Source of the DNA: Cyanobacteria bacterium J069 | Lineage (GTDB): Bacteria; Cyanobacteriota; Cyanobacteriia; Elainellales; Elainellaceae | Direction of reading: 5' to 3' | NCBI GenBank assembly: GCA_003695655.1 | Contig: RFIF01000535.1 | Span: forward strand, 1-45,687 | DNA: 45,687 bases | Shown here: piece by piece, positions 6,364 to 11,649 of the stretch | Numbering within the stretch: position 1 is the first letter of the stretch | How the letters are laid out: every line of letters begins with the position of its first letter | Notes under the pieces: generated by a model | Told to the model about the DNA's origin: nothing | Seen by the model: the letters and a program-made list of their open reading frames with translations, nothing else | Database searches by the model: none | Translations under genes and position numbers: made by a program

Positions 6364-7068
6364 GTGCCTAGACGGGCTGGCAAGAAGCAGCGATCGCTGG
6401 AAATTTTGGTGCGGCTGAAGCGGCTGTATCCAGACGCAACTTGCTCGCTGGATTATGAAACGCCGGTACAGCTTTTGGTGGCGACGATTCTCTCGGCGCA
6501 GTGCACCGATGAACGGGTAAATCAGGTAACACCGGAGCTATTTCGCCGCTTCCCGGATGCCCCATCGCTGGCCAGCGCTGACCCAGACGAAATCGAAAAT
6601 CTGGTGCGCTCTACAGGGTTTTATCGCAACAAGGCGAAAAATATCCAGGGAGCTTGCCGCAAGATCGTAACTGATTTTGGCGGACAGGTGCCGCAGACGA
6701 TGGAGGAGTTGCTGACGTTACCCGGAGTTGCCCGCAAGACTGGGAACGTCGTGCTGGCTCATGCGTTTGGCATTAACGCGGGCGTGACCGTGGATACGCA
6801 TGTCAAGCGCCTAACCTATCGGCTGGGGTTAACTACTCATACTGATCCAGTGCGGATTGAGCGCGACCTGATGAAGCTACTGCCCCAGCCCGACTGGGAA
6901 AACTGGTCGATTCGCCTGATTTATCACGGGCGAGCGGTATGCAATGCGCGAAATCCAGCGTGCGATCGCTGCCAGTTGGCCGATCTCTGCCCCTCCGCCG
7001 ACCCGACAAAAGTTGCGCTTGCGGCAGTGCCTGCACTTGTAAAGGAACCTGCGATCCTCGAACCCTAA
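6364..7068 (+). CDS. nth: Endonuclease III
   Basis: 234 aa, GTG start; helix-hairpin-helix LPGVARKTGNVVL and [4Fe-4S] cysteines CNARNPACDRCQLADLC. Confidence 0.95.
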   Translation: MPRRAGKKQRSLEILVRLKRLYPDATCSLDYETPVQLLVATILSAQCTDERVNQVTPELFRRFPDAPSLASADPDEIENLVRSTGFYRNKAKNIQGACRKIVTDFGGQVPQTMEELLTLPGVARKTGNVVLAHAFGINAGVTVDTHVKRLTYRLGLTTHTDPVRIERDLMKLLPQPDWENWSIRLIYHGRAVCNARNPACDRCQLADLCPSADPTKVALAAVPALVKEPAILEP

Positions 7069-7128
7069 CGCCTCATCTGTCCGTTTCCCAAAACTTCCGC
7101 CAGAATAAAGACAGCCTCCAGCCCCCGT

Positions 7129-10100
7129 GTGTCTATGCCCCCAGATGCCTCTGCGCCGCTGACGCTGTTCGTGTCCTATTCCCACCGAGATGAAGCGCTG
7201 AAGGATGAACTGATTGTTCATCTGGCCAATCTAAAGCGCCAGGGGAAAATTGCCGCCTGGCAAGACCGCGACATCGAAGCGGGCACCGAGTGGGATGCTG
7301 AAATCAAGCAGCAGCTCGAATCTGCCGAAATCATCCTGCTGCTAATCACGCCTCGGTTTCTCGCGTCGGACTATTGCTATGACCTGGAAATGCAGCGGGC
7401 CGTGCAGCGCCACAACGAAGGCACCGCCCGCGTCATCCCCATCATCCTCAAACCGTGCGACTGGCAGGGCAGCCCCTTTAGCAAGCTCCAGGTCTTGCCC
7501 AAAGATGCCAAAGCTGTTACCCAGTGGCCCGATCAAGACGAAGCCTTTTTGAACGTGGTGCAGGGCATCCGTCGCGCTGTGGAGTCGCTCCACGCAAAAA
7601 AGCATCTGGGGGCAACGCCTGATTCTGCGAATGCAGCGGACGTTGCCCCGCCGCAACCCCTAACTCCTCAATTTTCAACTTATAATCCAGCTACTTTTAC
7701 GGGTCGCGAAGCCGAAACCGCAGACCTGACCCAAGTCCTGGTGGGAAGCTGCCGCATTCTCGCCATTGTGGGCATGACGGGTATCGGCAAAACCGCCCTG
7801 GCAGAGCGAGTTATCGCCAGTCTGATAGAAACGACCGACGCTGCGACGCTACCTTACATCCGCTTTAGCCTGGACGATCGCAGCCTGACGCCGGACTTTT
7901 CTAGCAGTGGCGCGGCGCTGCTCCGTACGCTGGGCGAAGAACCAACCCTGGCCGATCAGCAAGACCCCGCCAACCTGCTGGCTCACCTGTTTCGCCGATT
8001 GCAAAGCCACCCCTGCCGTCTGCAAATCGACTCGCTGGAGCGGCTGCTGCGGGGTAACGAGCAAGAGGGCTGGAGCGAATTTTGCGATCCGCTGTGGCTG
8101 GATTTGCTGCATCAGTTTTTGGCGGCTGCCGACACCCGCAGCCAACTGCTGCTGACGAGCCAGGATATCCCCGCCGATCTGGATACCGTCGCCTCGCGCT
8201 ATCCGCAGTTTTGGCATTGCGAGGCGCTCCAGGGACTGTCCGCCGCCGAACAGCTTGAGCTATTTGCCAAGTTAGGGCTGCCCCAGGACGCGGCAGCGCA
8301 GGAAACGCTGCGGCAGATTGGGCAGTTTTATGATGGGCATCCGCTGGTGTTGCAGGTGATGGCGGAGGAGATGCGCCAGCCGCCGTTTTCAGAAAATGTC
8401 GCCCGCTATTGGCAGCACTACGCCGCCGAGTTTGCCGCCTCATCCACCGCGCCCGCCGCTGCTGGCAACAAGCTCGATCGTAGCCGTCTGTTTCGGCGTC
8501 GCGTGCGGCAGCGAGTCGAGCAATCCATCCAGCGTTTGCCCGACCCCGCCCGCCAGATGCTCTGCGCCAGCGCCGTTTTCCGTCGCCCCGTGCCTACCGA
8601 GTTTTGGCACGCGATGCTGCCCGACGGAGATCCCTACGCCGCCTTCGACACGCTGCAAGATGGCCACCTGGTAGAGTATGCACCCTCAGAAGGCGACACG
8701 CTACTAATTCGACAGCACAACCTGATTCGTGCTGTCGCCTACGCGCTGCTAAAAGCTGACCCCGCAACATGGGAGGCAGCCGAACGCAAAGCGGCTGATC
8801 TGTGGCTCACGAACTACGAACCTGCTCCTAACGCAGAACGGCTGGAAACCGTACGCGGATATCTAGAAGCCTTTGACCACTATTGCGAAGTGAGCGATTG
8901 GGAACAAGCCAGCGAGATTTATACTTGTCAACTGGTGTCCACAAATCAGGCACTGCACTGGCAGTTATTGATGTGGGGATATTACAAAGAATTAATTGAG
9001 GTCAGCCGTAGGCTCGTTAATCGAATTGCGTCTCAAACTAAAAGGCTTTGCCTCAACCGGATAGGCAACTCCTATAGCAATCTTGGCAATGTTGAAAGGG
9101 CAATCGATTATTATCAGCAGGCGTTGCAGTTTGCTCGTGAAACTGGCGATCGCCAAGGTGAAGGCCGTGTCCTGGGCGATCTGGGGAATGCATATGACAA
9201 TCTAGGGGAATATGAACAGGCGATCGACTTCCATCAGCAATACCTGACCATTGCACGGGAAATTGGCGATCGCCGGAGTGAAGGCAATGCCCTTGGTGAT
9301 CTGGGGAATGCGTATAGCCATTTGGGGCAGCATGAGCGGGCGATTGACTTCTATCAGCAAAGCCTAAGCATTGCGCGGGAGATTAGTAATCGCCATGGTG
9401 AGGGCGTTGCCTTAGGCAATCTGGGGGTTGCCCACAGAAACTTAGGGCAGTATGAGCGGGCGAGTAATTTTCATCAGCAATATCTGAGCATTGCGCGGGA
9501 GATTGGCGATCGCCGGGGTGAAGGCATTGCCCTATGTCATCTGGGGATTGCACACCATATCCTGGGGCAGTATGAGCAGGCGATCGACCTCTATCAGCAA
9601 TATCTAAGCATTGCGCGGGAGATTGGCGATCGCCAGGGTGAAGGCAGTGCTTTAGGCTGTCTAGGAATTGCCCACAAGAGTCTAGGGCAGTATGAGCGGG
9701 CGATCGACCTCTATCAGCAATATCTAAGCATTGCGCGGGAGATTGGTGATCGCCAGGGTGAAGGCAATGCCCTGGGCAATCTGGGGAATGCGTACGACAG
9801 TCTGGGGCAGTATGAGCGGGCGATCGATTTCCATCAGCAAAGTCTGAGCATTGCGCAGGAGATTGGCGATCGTCGGGGTGAGGGCGCTGCTCTAGTCAAT
9901 ATGGGTGAAACTCAACTCAAGCTGGAGCAATACGCAGAATCGCTGACTAATAACCAGGCGGCATTAGAAATTTTTCGAGAGATTGGCGATCGGGCTAACG
10001 AAGCCGAAGCGCTCAAAAATTTGGCAGAGGTGCATCAGGCGCTGGGCGAGGGGGCGGTGGCGCGGCATTATGGTGAGCAGGCGTTGGCGCTGGCGACGGA

Positions 10101-10170
10101 GTTGGGCATTCCGCTCCAGGCGGAGTGCGAGGCGTTGCTGTCAGAGTTGGAAAAGGGCGACAGTGAATGA
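7129..10170 (+). CDS. TIR domain / NB-ARC-like STAND NTPase / TPR protein (predicted immune sensor-effector)
   Basis: 1013 aa (GTG 7129 or ATG 7135). N-terminal TIR (LFVSYSHRDEALKDELIVHL...IAAWQDRDIEAGTEWDAEI...ITPRFLASDYCYDLEMQRAV). FTGREAE followed by P-loop GMTGIGKTAL. C-terminal 40-aa TPRs (EIGDRRGEG-ALG-LG-AY--LGQYERAIDFYQQ-LSIAR). Confidence 0.92.
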   Translation: MSMPPDASAPLTLFVSYSHRDEALKDELIVHLANLKRQGKIAAWQDRDIEAGTEWDAEIKQQLESAEIILLLITPRFLASDYCYDLEMQRAVQRHNEGTARVIPIILKPCDWQGSPFSKLQVLPKDAKAVTQWPDQDEAFLNVVQGIRRAVESLHAKKHLGATPDSANAADVAPPQPLTPQFSTYNPATFTGREAETADLTQVLVGSCRILAIVGMTGIGKTALAERVIASLIETTDAATLPYIRFSLDDRSLTPDFSSSGAALLRTLGEEPTLADQQDPANLLAHLFRRLQSHPCRLQIDSLERLLRGNEQEGWSEFCDPLWLDLLHQFLAAADTRSQLLLTSQDIPADLDTVASRYPQFWHCEALQGLSAAEQLELFAKLGLPQDAAAQETLRQIGQFYDGHPLVLQVMAEEMRQPPFSENVARYWQHYAAEFAASSTAPAAAGNKLDRSRLFRRRVRQRVEQSIQRLPDPARQMLCASAVFRRPVPTEFWHAMLPDGDPYAAFDTLQDGHLVEYAPSEGDTLLIRQHNLIRAVAYALLKADPATWEAAERKAADLWLTNYEPAPNAERLETVRGYLEAFDHYCEVSDWEQASEIYTCQLVSTNQALHWQLLMWGYYKELIEVSRRLVNRIASQTKRLCLNRIGNSYSNLGNVERAIDYYQQALQFARETGDRQGEGRVLGDLGNAYDNLGEYEQAIDFHQQYLTIAREIGDRRSEGNALGDLGNAYSHLGQHERAIDFYQQSLSIAREISNRHGEGVALGNLGVAHRNLGQYERASNFHQQYLSIAREIGDRRGEGIALCHLGIAHHILGQYEQAIDLYQQYLSIAREIGDRQGEGSALGCLGIAHKSLGQYERAIDLYQQYLSIAREIGDRQGEGNALGNLGNAYDSLGQYERAIDFHQQSLSIAQEIGDRRGEGAALVNMGETQLKLEQYAESLTNNQAALEIFREIGDRANEAEALKNLAEVHQALGEGAVARHYGEQALALATELGIPLQAECEALLSELEKGDSE
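9120..9990 (+). repeat. 120-bp in-frame tandem repeats encoding TPRs
   Basis: The GATTGGCGATCGCC-like element recurs at exact 120-nt spacing (about 9145, 9265, 9385, 9505, 9625, 9745, 9865, 9985) with strongly conserved flanks. Confidence 0.95.
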
Positions 10171-10433
10171 GCCAGCGAGACAAACTACTGATCAAAATTT
10201 TGCTGGGAACTGCGGATGCCAATATTCCTTTTGAATCGCTGTGTCAATTGCTGCGTACTCTTGGTTTTGATGAACGAATACGCGGGAGTCACCATATTTT
10301 CTCCAAATCAGGGGTTGAAGAGATTCTCAACCTTCAGCCAAAACAGGGAAAAGCCAAAGCCTATCAGGTGAAACAAGTTCGCACTGTAATCTTGAAATAT
10401 CAGCTTGGAGGGGACGATGGAAATTCGCTATGA
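10167..10433 (+). CDS. hicA: HicA/YcfA-like mRNA interferase toxin
   Basis: 88 aa; LCQLLRTLGFDERIRGSHHIFSKSG...LNLQPKQGKAKAYQVKQVRTVILKY; ATGA overlap with the upstream STAND gene. Confidence 0.85.
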   Translation: MSQRDKLLIKILLGTADANIPFESLCQLLRTLGFDERIRGSHHIFSKSGVEEILNLQPKQGKAKAYQVKQVRTVILKYQLGGDDGNSL

Positions 10434-10629
10434 ACTGATTATTTATTGGAGCGAAGACGATCAGGCATTCATTGTCGAAGTGCCCGAACTTGCAGGCTGC
10501 GCTGCTGATGGTGCAACCTATCAGGAAGCGGTACAGAATGTCGAAGTTGTGATTCAGGAATGGATGGAGACTGCGAAGGAATTGGGCAGACCCATCCCCG
10601 AACCCAAAGGGAGGCTGATGTTTGCTTAA
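10417..10629 (+). CDS. hicB: HicB-like antitoxin
   Basis: MEIRYELIIYWSEDDQAFIVEVPELAGCAADGATYQEAVQNVEVVIQEWMETAKELGRPIPEPKGRLMFA; preceded by GGAGGGG. Listed ORF starts upstream at TTG 10405. Confidence 0.88.
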   Translation: MEIRYELIIYWSEDDQAFIVEVPELAGCAADGATYQEAVQNVEVVIQEWMETAKELGRPIPEPKGRLMFA

Positions 10630-10852
10630 TGCCACACTATCCACTCTTTTGACAGAGCTAGGGGAAGAATGCGAGAAATTCGTGTTTCTCCTTAGTCAGC
10701 TCAAACTTGCCAACTTAACTAATGACCAAAAAGGCGATATTCTCGCTGAACTTACAGGTTCAGTGAGCCACCTTCATGTGCATACAGAGAACCTTTCAGA
10801 ACTGATTGAGGACGAAATTCTAATACTCCCTGATGAGCCAGACAGTTATTAG
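10622..10852 (+). CDS. Small alpha-helical protein of unknown function overlapping the hicB 3' end
   Basis: 76 aa, TTG start, overlaps hicB by 8 nt; no recognised motif; start uncertain. Confidence 0.5.
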   Translation: MLNATLSTLLTELGEECEKFVFLLSQLKLANLTNDQKGDILAELTGSVSHLHVHTENLSELIEDEILILPDEPDSY

Positions 10853-10854
10853 TT

Positions 10855-10990
10855 ATTGGCGATCGCTAGGGTTAAGGCAATACTCTAGTACGGTGAGCAG
10901 GCGTTGGCGCTGGTGATGGAGTTAGGCATTCCGCTCAAAGCCGAGTGCGAGGCGTTGCTGTCAGAATTAGACCAAGATCACAAATCATGA
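10855..10990 (+). pseudogene. Remnant of a STAND/TPR gene 3' end, paralogous to 10070-10170
   Basis: TACGGTGAGCAGGCGTTGGCGCTGGTGATGGAGTTAGGCATTCCGCTCAAAGCCGAGTGCGAGGCGTTGCTGTCAGAATTA encodes YGEQALALVMELGIPLKAECEALLSEL, versus YGEQALALATELGIPLQAECEALLSEL at the end of the intact gene. Preceded by a degenerate TPR fragment (ATTGGCGATCGCTAGGGTTAAGGCAATACTC). Confidence 0.88.
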
Positions 10991-11007
10991 AGGAGAACTT
11001 TTCACCC

Positions 11008-11206
11008 ATGCGTGGTGTTCAATTCGTTGTGGATGAAGATGGTGAAAAAACGGCCGTTCTGCTGGATTTACGCGAATGGGGAAGAACTTTGGGAAGATTT
11101 TTATGACGTTTTAGTCTCCCACTCCAAGGCAAAGGAGAAATCAGACAGTTGGGCAGAACTAGAATCTGAATTGGATGCGGAACGCCCCAACCATGGCTCA
11201 GTATGA
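11008..11206 (+). pseudogene. RelB/Phd-like antitoxin disrupted by a +1 frameshift
   Basis: MRGVQFVVDEDGEKTAVLLDLREWG in one frame continues as ELWEDFYDVLVSHSKAKEKSDSWAELESELDAE in the next. Removing one A from GGGGAAGAAC (11078-11087) restores a single frame. Confidence 0.75.
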
Positions 11207-11384
11207 GATTCAGTCCAAAACATTGGCAGCCAAAGAGTTTCGTAAACTTCCTCAAGACATTAAATCTCGCATTTGTAAGGCCATTAATGCTCTTAAAACA
11301 ACTCTCGCCCAGTCGGAAAACAAAAAAGCCGGGAGTTCCTACATGGGGATTCCCAGCTTTGCTGAATGGATTCAGTTTATCTAA
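11193..11384 (+). pseudogene. RelE/ParE-like toxin, 3' truncated
   Basis: MAQYEIQSKTLAAKEFRKLPQDIKSRICKAINAL resembles RelE N-termini; the core and C-terminus are absent and replaced by hairpin-rich sequence. Confidence 0.65.
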
Positions 11385-11387
11385 ACG

Positions 11388-11420
11388 GCTCAGGCTGTCG
11401 AGATGAGGTCAAGCCTGAGC
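11388..11420. terminator. Perfect 9-bp stem-loop near the 3' end of the island
   Basis: GCTCAGGCT-15 nt-AGCCTGAGC; preceded by a second hairpin CTGAA-TGGA-TTCAG. Confidence 0.5.
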
Positions 11421-11649
11421 GCAAATCAGTCTGCTAGTTTGGTTTCGGTAGCAACATCTAGCCGATGTGTTCCACAGCCTTGTTGCTCACACTGGACAGG
11501 GCTGGTTGCGGCAAGGCCGCTCTAGCCGGAGTCCATTATTTTTAAGCGTGCGTACCAATGAGCGCGCGTACCAAAAGGGGCTTTCCAAACTGCATTTATA
11601 TTATATAGAGGCCATGCAGGCCAATAAAACAGCGTGGCGTCCTCTTACG

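Follow-up and report, generated by a model that had tools for sequence, protein, structure and literature searches.

How does the 3′ end of an immune-type gene come to stand twice in one neighbourhood, each time ahead of a different toxin-antitoxin (TA) pair? The question was raised by a 45,687-nucleotide contig of Cyanobacteria bacterium J069 (RFIF01000535.1; this whole stretch is called the window below), in which a gene for a STAND NTPase is followed by a HicA/HicB pair, then by a second copy of the end of the STAND gene (the tail), and then by a RelB/RelE-like pair, all on the forward strand. We favour, with a probability of roughly 70%, repeated insertion of DNA consisting of a tail and its cargo at the conserved STAND 3′ end, by which older TA pairs were displaced downstream. 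The architecture was seen repeatedly, TA genes were enriched behind tails, the cargo proved exchangeable, an empty site was found, and new DNA was observed to have entered upstream of the resident tail.

The STAND gene (7129–10170, GTG start) encodes a single chain of 1013 amino acids (aa) that comprises a TIR domain, a P-loop NTPase of the NB-ARC type and TPR repeats, all above the Pfam cut-offs (TIR_2, 1e-15; NB-ARC, 1.7e-7; TPR_12, 2e-69), with the TIR domain assigned to the ThsB type by PADLOC (2.4e-60). By this domain make-up, the product would be an NLR-like defence protein with a ThsB-type TIR, for which a defence role is predicted. The gene is a mosaic, its TIR domain being 79–81% identical to those of loci L031 and L048 and its NB-ARC domain only 40–42%. 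No second STAND copy was found in the same genome beyond a 96-nt TPR match.

The conserved C-terminal tail was located by its profile at 10039–10170 (attached copy), and a copy without a gene body lies at 10889–10990 (orphan copy). Alignment of 10069–10151 with 10889–10971 gave 89% DNA identity over 83 nt (74/83), which confirmed the original prediction that the STAND 3′ end recurs at 10889; the orphan copy was also matched by the tail profile at E=2e-16, so the similarity is not due to chance. The repeat covers roughly the final 33 codons of the gene, and the encoded proteins end before the stop codon in YGEQALALATELGIPLQAECEALLSELEKGDSE for the attached copy and YGEQALALVMELGIPLKAECEALLSELDQDHKS for the orphan copy. 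Immediately 5′ of the orphan tail, a scrap of TPR sequence (10853–10888, with 85% identity to a TPR unit over the 34 nt of 10855–10888) retains the stretch GDRxGxGNTL with stops in frame, indicating that the remnant is a decayed, internally deleted 3′ end of a displaced STAND gene. Most differences between the two tail copies are synonymous and lie at third codon positions, and a diversity-generating retroelement was rejected because the differences are not confined to adenines. An artefact in the assembly of this metagenome-assembled genome was likewise rejected, since these arrays are also present in contigs that are complete or long (G146, G271, G085 and G043).

The cargo directly behind the STAND gene is an intact HicAB pair. 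The HicA-type toxin gene (10167–10433) has its ATG inside the STAND stop codon (ATGA), and the product contains the GSHH motif and scored 24.1 bits against HicA_toxin (3.8e-5), just under the 27-bit gathering cut-off; the adjoining HicB-type antitoxin gene (10417–10629) scored above the cut-off for HicB_lk_antitox (3.4e-9) and also matched UPF0150 (6e-8). These features agree with the definition of HicA used here, a toxin resembling a double-stranded RNA-binding domain with a conserved His and an adjoining HicB partner, and the pair is conserved in 5 loci. For the pair behind the orphan tail, a RelB/Phd-like antitoxin and a RelE-like toxin had been proposed; the families were right, but both genes are broken. 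The RelB-like gene (11008–11206, with an alternative in-frame ATG at 10987) carries a 1-nt frameshift near 11080 in the nucleotide alignment with the intact RelBE genes of locus L032 (G026), whose antitoxin is matched by the two halves at 90% and 87% aa identity. The RelE/ParE-like remnant (11193–11384) has lost the C-terminal half, which has diverged or been deleted, and only its N-terminal ~36 aa are homologous to intact relatives (89% aa identity to L032 over residues 1–36). Judged by these frames, neither of which is intact, the second pair consists of pseudogenes and is no longer functional cargo.

In L032, the tail ends in LEQDHKS, continues in frame into at least 120 more TPR residues upstream and is followed by the intact RelB and RelE genes, which are 87–90% identical in aa sequence to the broken pair of the window. 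A look in close relatives for an intact second STAND gene before relBE had been proposed as a check; as the tail is joined to intact RelBE in L032, the STAND-RelBE state is real, and in the lineage of the window HicAB now lies between the gene and RelBE. A STAND gene of Spirulina (L051) has the identical DHKS end with RelB behind it. Furthermore, the RelBE-joined tail of L032 is a closer match to the orphan tail (91/100 nt) than is the attached copy, which lies 820 bp upstream of it in the window. An origin by local slippage or chance, independent of the TA genes, of which slippage had been named beforehand among the findings that would overturn the prediction, is contradicted by this match to a RelBE-linked tail of another genus and by the identical architecture in many genomes, besides the 89% identity over 83 nt, and its probability is practically negligible.

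The original prediction had also seen a shared principle in the overlap of stop and start codons, because ATGA is present at both ends (10167–10170 and 10987–10990). HicA starts do overlap the STAND stop in four loci (ATGA in the window, in L053 and at an orphan tail in L138; TTGA in L034). In both L032 and L051, the RelB gene follows the tail through CACAAATCATAA, a TAA stop, an AAGGA(G) Shine-Dalgarno sequence and an ATG 15–20 nt on, so the true start of the window antitoxin is probably 11008. Read against these two loci, the ATGA of the remnant is a lineage-specific, private change and the HicA overlap is the conserved one. Relative to the stop, TA starts over all loci fell at −30 to about +230 nt, with a median of +10.5. 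Tight spacing is thus the common rule and overlap a special case: the coupling stands as a recurring succession of STAND 3′ end and TA pair with exchangeable cargo, and ATGA as its shared principle does not.

How general this succession is was evaluated by running a 41-position tail profile over 291 cyanobacterial genomes. The tail was present in 56 of them, several of which had extra copies in tiny reading frames 650–900 bp apart. The regions were fetched and the tails were located in them by a refined profile, giving 59 attached tails, 31 orphan candidates, some of which are contig-edge or decayed intact genes (e.g. L046, L066, L143 and L144), and 2 contig-edge tails; a first set of 77 loci, with many matches lacking the tail, was used in part. 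A type II TA or TA-like gene starting between −80 and +250 nt of the tail stop was counted as positive. Such genes followed 36 of the 92 tails (17/59 attached, 17/31 orphan and 2/2 contig-edge), compared with 1 of 216 genes of at least 200 aa taken from 400 kb of these genomes (Fisher p about 1e-20) and 3 of 292 other genes in the same loci (p about 5e-22), tests in which the rows are not fully independent, one genus giving more than 10 tails without TA; counted per locus, the proportion was 27/75. Since the TA seeds had been taken from genes behind tails, a second, unbiased Pfam scan was made, in which TA families dominated behind tails and were absent from the 25 commonest families behind control genes. 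The enrichment of TA genes after TPR-STAND genes, which had been set as a test, was thereby established. As for carriers, the only relative on plasmids was a 56-nt TPR-tail match in Tolypothrix and Microchaete, with no TA behind the one inspected, and viral contigs held no relative of the tail region and hence no sign of phage carriage.

In several genomes these tails form arrays, some with two or three orphan tails, in which the cargo changes from one tail to the next. L033 reads STAND, DUF6883/DUF4926, tail, RelBE, tail, HicAB; L128 reads tail, Phd/PIN (VapBC), tail, DUF4258-like/DUF2283, tail, DUF4258/DUF2283; L129 reads STAND, DUF4160/DUF2442, tail, DUF433/DUF5615, tail; and L130 reads tail, RelBE, tail, DUF6883/DUF4926, XisI. 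A stub of the host gene precedes each displaced cargo, and the cargo is different each time, as in orphan arrays of other systems. Within the set, DUF4258/DUF2283, DUF6883/DUF4926, XisH/XisI and DUF4160/DUF2442 are regarded as TA-like by their pairing and position. The window and L034 share HicA and HicB (84% and 80% aa identity) with NB-ARC domains only 40% identical, and L031, with a TIR domain 81% and a whole protein 56% identical to those of the window, yet carries DUF4258-like/DUF2283 and not HicAB. By these comparisons, the cargo is decoupled from the lineage of the host gene. Two side observations belong to the arrays: another VapBC-like pair lies on the minus strand just upstream of the three-cassette array of L128 (844–1541), and in Okeania an orphan tail lies ~54 nt after an attached tail with no gene between them (L061:6262–6527), perhaps through loop-out of a lost cassette.

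The direction of insertion could be read from relatives with and without the insert. The whole STAND-TA block of the window (7065–11437) is absent as a unit from the complete same-genus genome G001, in which the match to the window (blastn vs locus L218) stops at 7064 and restarts at 11438, so that 111 bp occupy the place of the 4.37-kb block; nth and an rlpA-like gene (preceding an ABC transporter) flank the block and are direct neighbours in G001. Neither a target-site duplication nor a long terminal repeat was found at the block ends in this comparison. Within genus g44, L170 and L173 have a single STAND gene directly joined to the downstream DNA, and in L131 and L168 a DUF3800 gene has been inserted behind the STAND gene, with a second tail after it and then downstream DNA of the L170/L173 type (95% and 97% identity), the duplicated tails measuring 133 bp and 67 bp. 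New cargo therefore enters between the gene and the resident tail. DUF3800 is the inserted cargo of g44 in L131, L132 and L168; the attached tail of L131/L132 continues into a repeat of the CCCCCTTTA type, which extends the C-terminus (DLDPPQSPL).

These pairs also bear on the origin of the second tail, for which the original prediction had left two routes, tandem paralogues and cassette replacement. A tandem duplication of the whole STAND-TA unit, and then a deletion that removed the bulk of the second STAND gene but spared its 3′ end and TA pair, would account for the TPR scrap before the orphan tail of the window, and tandem tail-bearing STAND paralogues do exist in L167 and, further apart, in L184. 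However, the orphan tail of the window is nearer to the RelBE-linked tail of another species than to its neighbour, about 20 orphans from many genomes all measure at most ~40 codons with no long STAND stub seen before TA genes, the cargo changes at every step, and in the g44 relatives without insert a single STAND gene stands directly before the DNA that lies downstream of the orphan. We consider this route quite unlikely; insertion or replacement of cassettes fits better. The two paralogues of L167 are 3.6 kb apart and carry no TA genes.

A dedicated site-specific cassette system, integron-like, with the tail as the recombination site, would explain why serial cassettes of 650–900 bp have one tail copy each. 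The right junctions of the inserts, though, were found at −26, −15, +29 and +58 nt of the start of the tail profile, a scatter that indicates no fixed site; the 5′ boundaries of orphan tails spread over at least 80 nt without the fixed core of an integron, the tail copies diverge freely, and the mapped arrays had no recombinase gene noticed next to them, though no systematic search for one was made. Such a system is very improbable.

In its simplest form, the insertion reading could work as follows. An incoming fragment consisting of a STAND 3′ end and another TA pair would align with homologous TPR or tail sequence of the resident STAND gene, and its far side would be joined illegitimately just inside the resident STAND 3′ end. 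The STAND frame would thus be rebuilt with the incoming tail and the new TA pair, here HicAB, would adjoin it, with the old tail stub and its TA pair, here RelBE, shifted downstream as an orphan. Such a route, with homology at one end and illegitimate joining at the other, would probably involve DNA uptake. Joining of this kind is what has been suggested for contact-dependent inhibition (CDI) loci of Acinetobacter (PMC6336857), and it has been demonstrated during conjugation in E. coli as well as in bacteria with natural competence (PMC3240628). Because of addiction, dropping the old TA pair at once would be disfavoured, which may be the reason for stacking; displaced pairs can decay later, as RelBE, now at the end of this path, has done in the window. 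The stubs may be short because recombination would remove longer direct repeats. A position close behind a translated gene end would provide ready-made transcription and, for HicA, translational coupling, so that co-expression may be expected.

Several observations weigh against this reading. The cargo of the cleanest pairs with and without insert (g44) is a DUF3800 gene and not a TA pair, the illegitimate junctions bear no diagnostic signature, and 42 of the 59 intact STAND ends have no TA behind them. Among 36 joints, the nearest tail of another locus shared the TA type in 6 cases versus 4.0 expected (p=0.23); tail similarity does not predict TA type, which points to reshuffling of cargo behind tails over long times, and movement of tail and TA as one unit was shown only for the recent RelBE case.

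A different reading, compatible with the insertion mechanism, takes the TA pairs as selected parts of an immune operon, either as a guard or addiction module that would strike when the STAND gene is lost or poisoned, or as a second effector. It draws on the overlap of the HicA start with the STAND stop in four loci, on the defence-like domain make-up of these STAND proteins and on a known case of a TA unit guarding a defence system, CreTA with CRISPR-Cas (PMC9458426). Set against it are the 42 related STAND genes without TA, TA types unrelated to STAND lineage, the decay of displaced pairs and tail-TA units away from any STAND gene (L138 and L142, where a tail is followed by HicAB or DUF433/DUF5615), and we regard it as possible but rather doubtful. 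As most tails have no TA behind them, and in view of the decoupling from STAND lineage and the decay of displaced pairs, the TA pairs appear to be chiefly hitchhikers and not parts of the STAND immune mechanism. It is unlikely, too, that the 3′ end of this cyanobacterial NLR-like gene family is a general functional docking joint at which TA pairs serve as exchangeable guards or second-layer effectors of the receptor; if it were, swapping the TA pair would reset the circuit by which the cell dies when its receptor is lost or sabotaged.

The growth of these arrays resembles that of orphan cdiA-CT/cdiI, rhs-CT and type VI secretion system effector-immunity arrays (PMC4927057, PMC6336857), which likewise have a conserved body with variable 3′ cargo, made up of a toxic protein and the one that neutralises it. 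There, too, stacking proceeds stepwise from 5′ to 3′, older cargo being moved downstream together with a host-gene stub, and a combination of homology in the gene body with an illegitimate far end has been proposed. Unlike CDI and Rhs, the host here is a STAND immune NTPase, cytosolic by its domain content, and not a secreted toxin; the cargo is not a delivered C-terminal domain of the host protein but consists of whole, unrelated type II TA operons, unfused, whose starts lie at the stop codon or closely behind it; and the displaced stub comprises only the last 20–40 codons. The mode of array growth is thus known from CDI/Rhs (PMC4927057), and the host gene, the cargo and the unfused joint are new. 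Like CreTA (PMC9458426), the TA unit lies beside a defence gene and could enforce its retention, whereas here the units are interchangeable protein TA pairs of many families, are absent from many relatives and have no known regulation by the defence gene. The cargo itself belongs to known type II families (HicAB, RelBE/ParE, VapBC and PIN-DUF433; PMC2701414, PMC4963859) or to TA-like pairs, and STAND-linked arrays or tail repeats were not found in the parts of these two sources that were consulted. Kaur et al. 2020 (PMC7159879) describe NTP-dependent conflict systems in which multicellular prokaryotes, cyanobacteria among them, have STAND/NLR-like NTPases with rapidly exchanged effector domains; in the consulted part of that work, diversity lies in effector domains or diversity-generating retroelements, and no stack of TA pairs behind the gene was found. 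In a full-text search of the open-licence literature, no account of TA arrays downstream of STAND genes was found.

Cyanobacterial chromosomes are rich in TA pairs, and the reason for their existence is disputed. The joint described here links the study of NLR-like immune genes in prokaryotes to that of how chromosomal TA pairs turn over, two fields usually kept separate, and makes it testable whether TA pairs guard immune receptors or ride on them. Because orphan fossils at a defined joint preserve the sequence in which TA pairs were acquired, it becomes possible to read and date their gain, their displacement and their decay. The tail can also serve as a TA finder, small gene pairs right behind it being TA candidates (e.g. 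DUF6883/DUF4926, XisH/XisI and the 76-aa family described below).

Between HicB and the TPR scrap lies a 76-aa open reading frame (10622–10852) of an unnamed, well conserved family, for which no Pfam, NCBIfam or PADLOC match was obtained. Its predicted structure has three helices at a mean pLDDT (predicted local distance difference test) of 72, too uncertain for a fold claim. Homologues 70–83% identical are encoded at L031:9602–9868, L037:758–1114, L042:9651–9896, L064:467–790 and L152:5170–5412. Members of this helical family, which has no Pfam entry, range from 76 to 119 aa and occur in cassettes and elsewhere, and the family is a candidate TA component. Lastly, in L151 (5776), L157 and L165 the place of the TA pair is taken by a gene for a trypsin-like protein of more than 1200 aa, which starts within about −6 to +13 nt of the STAND tail.

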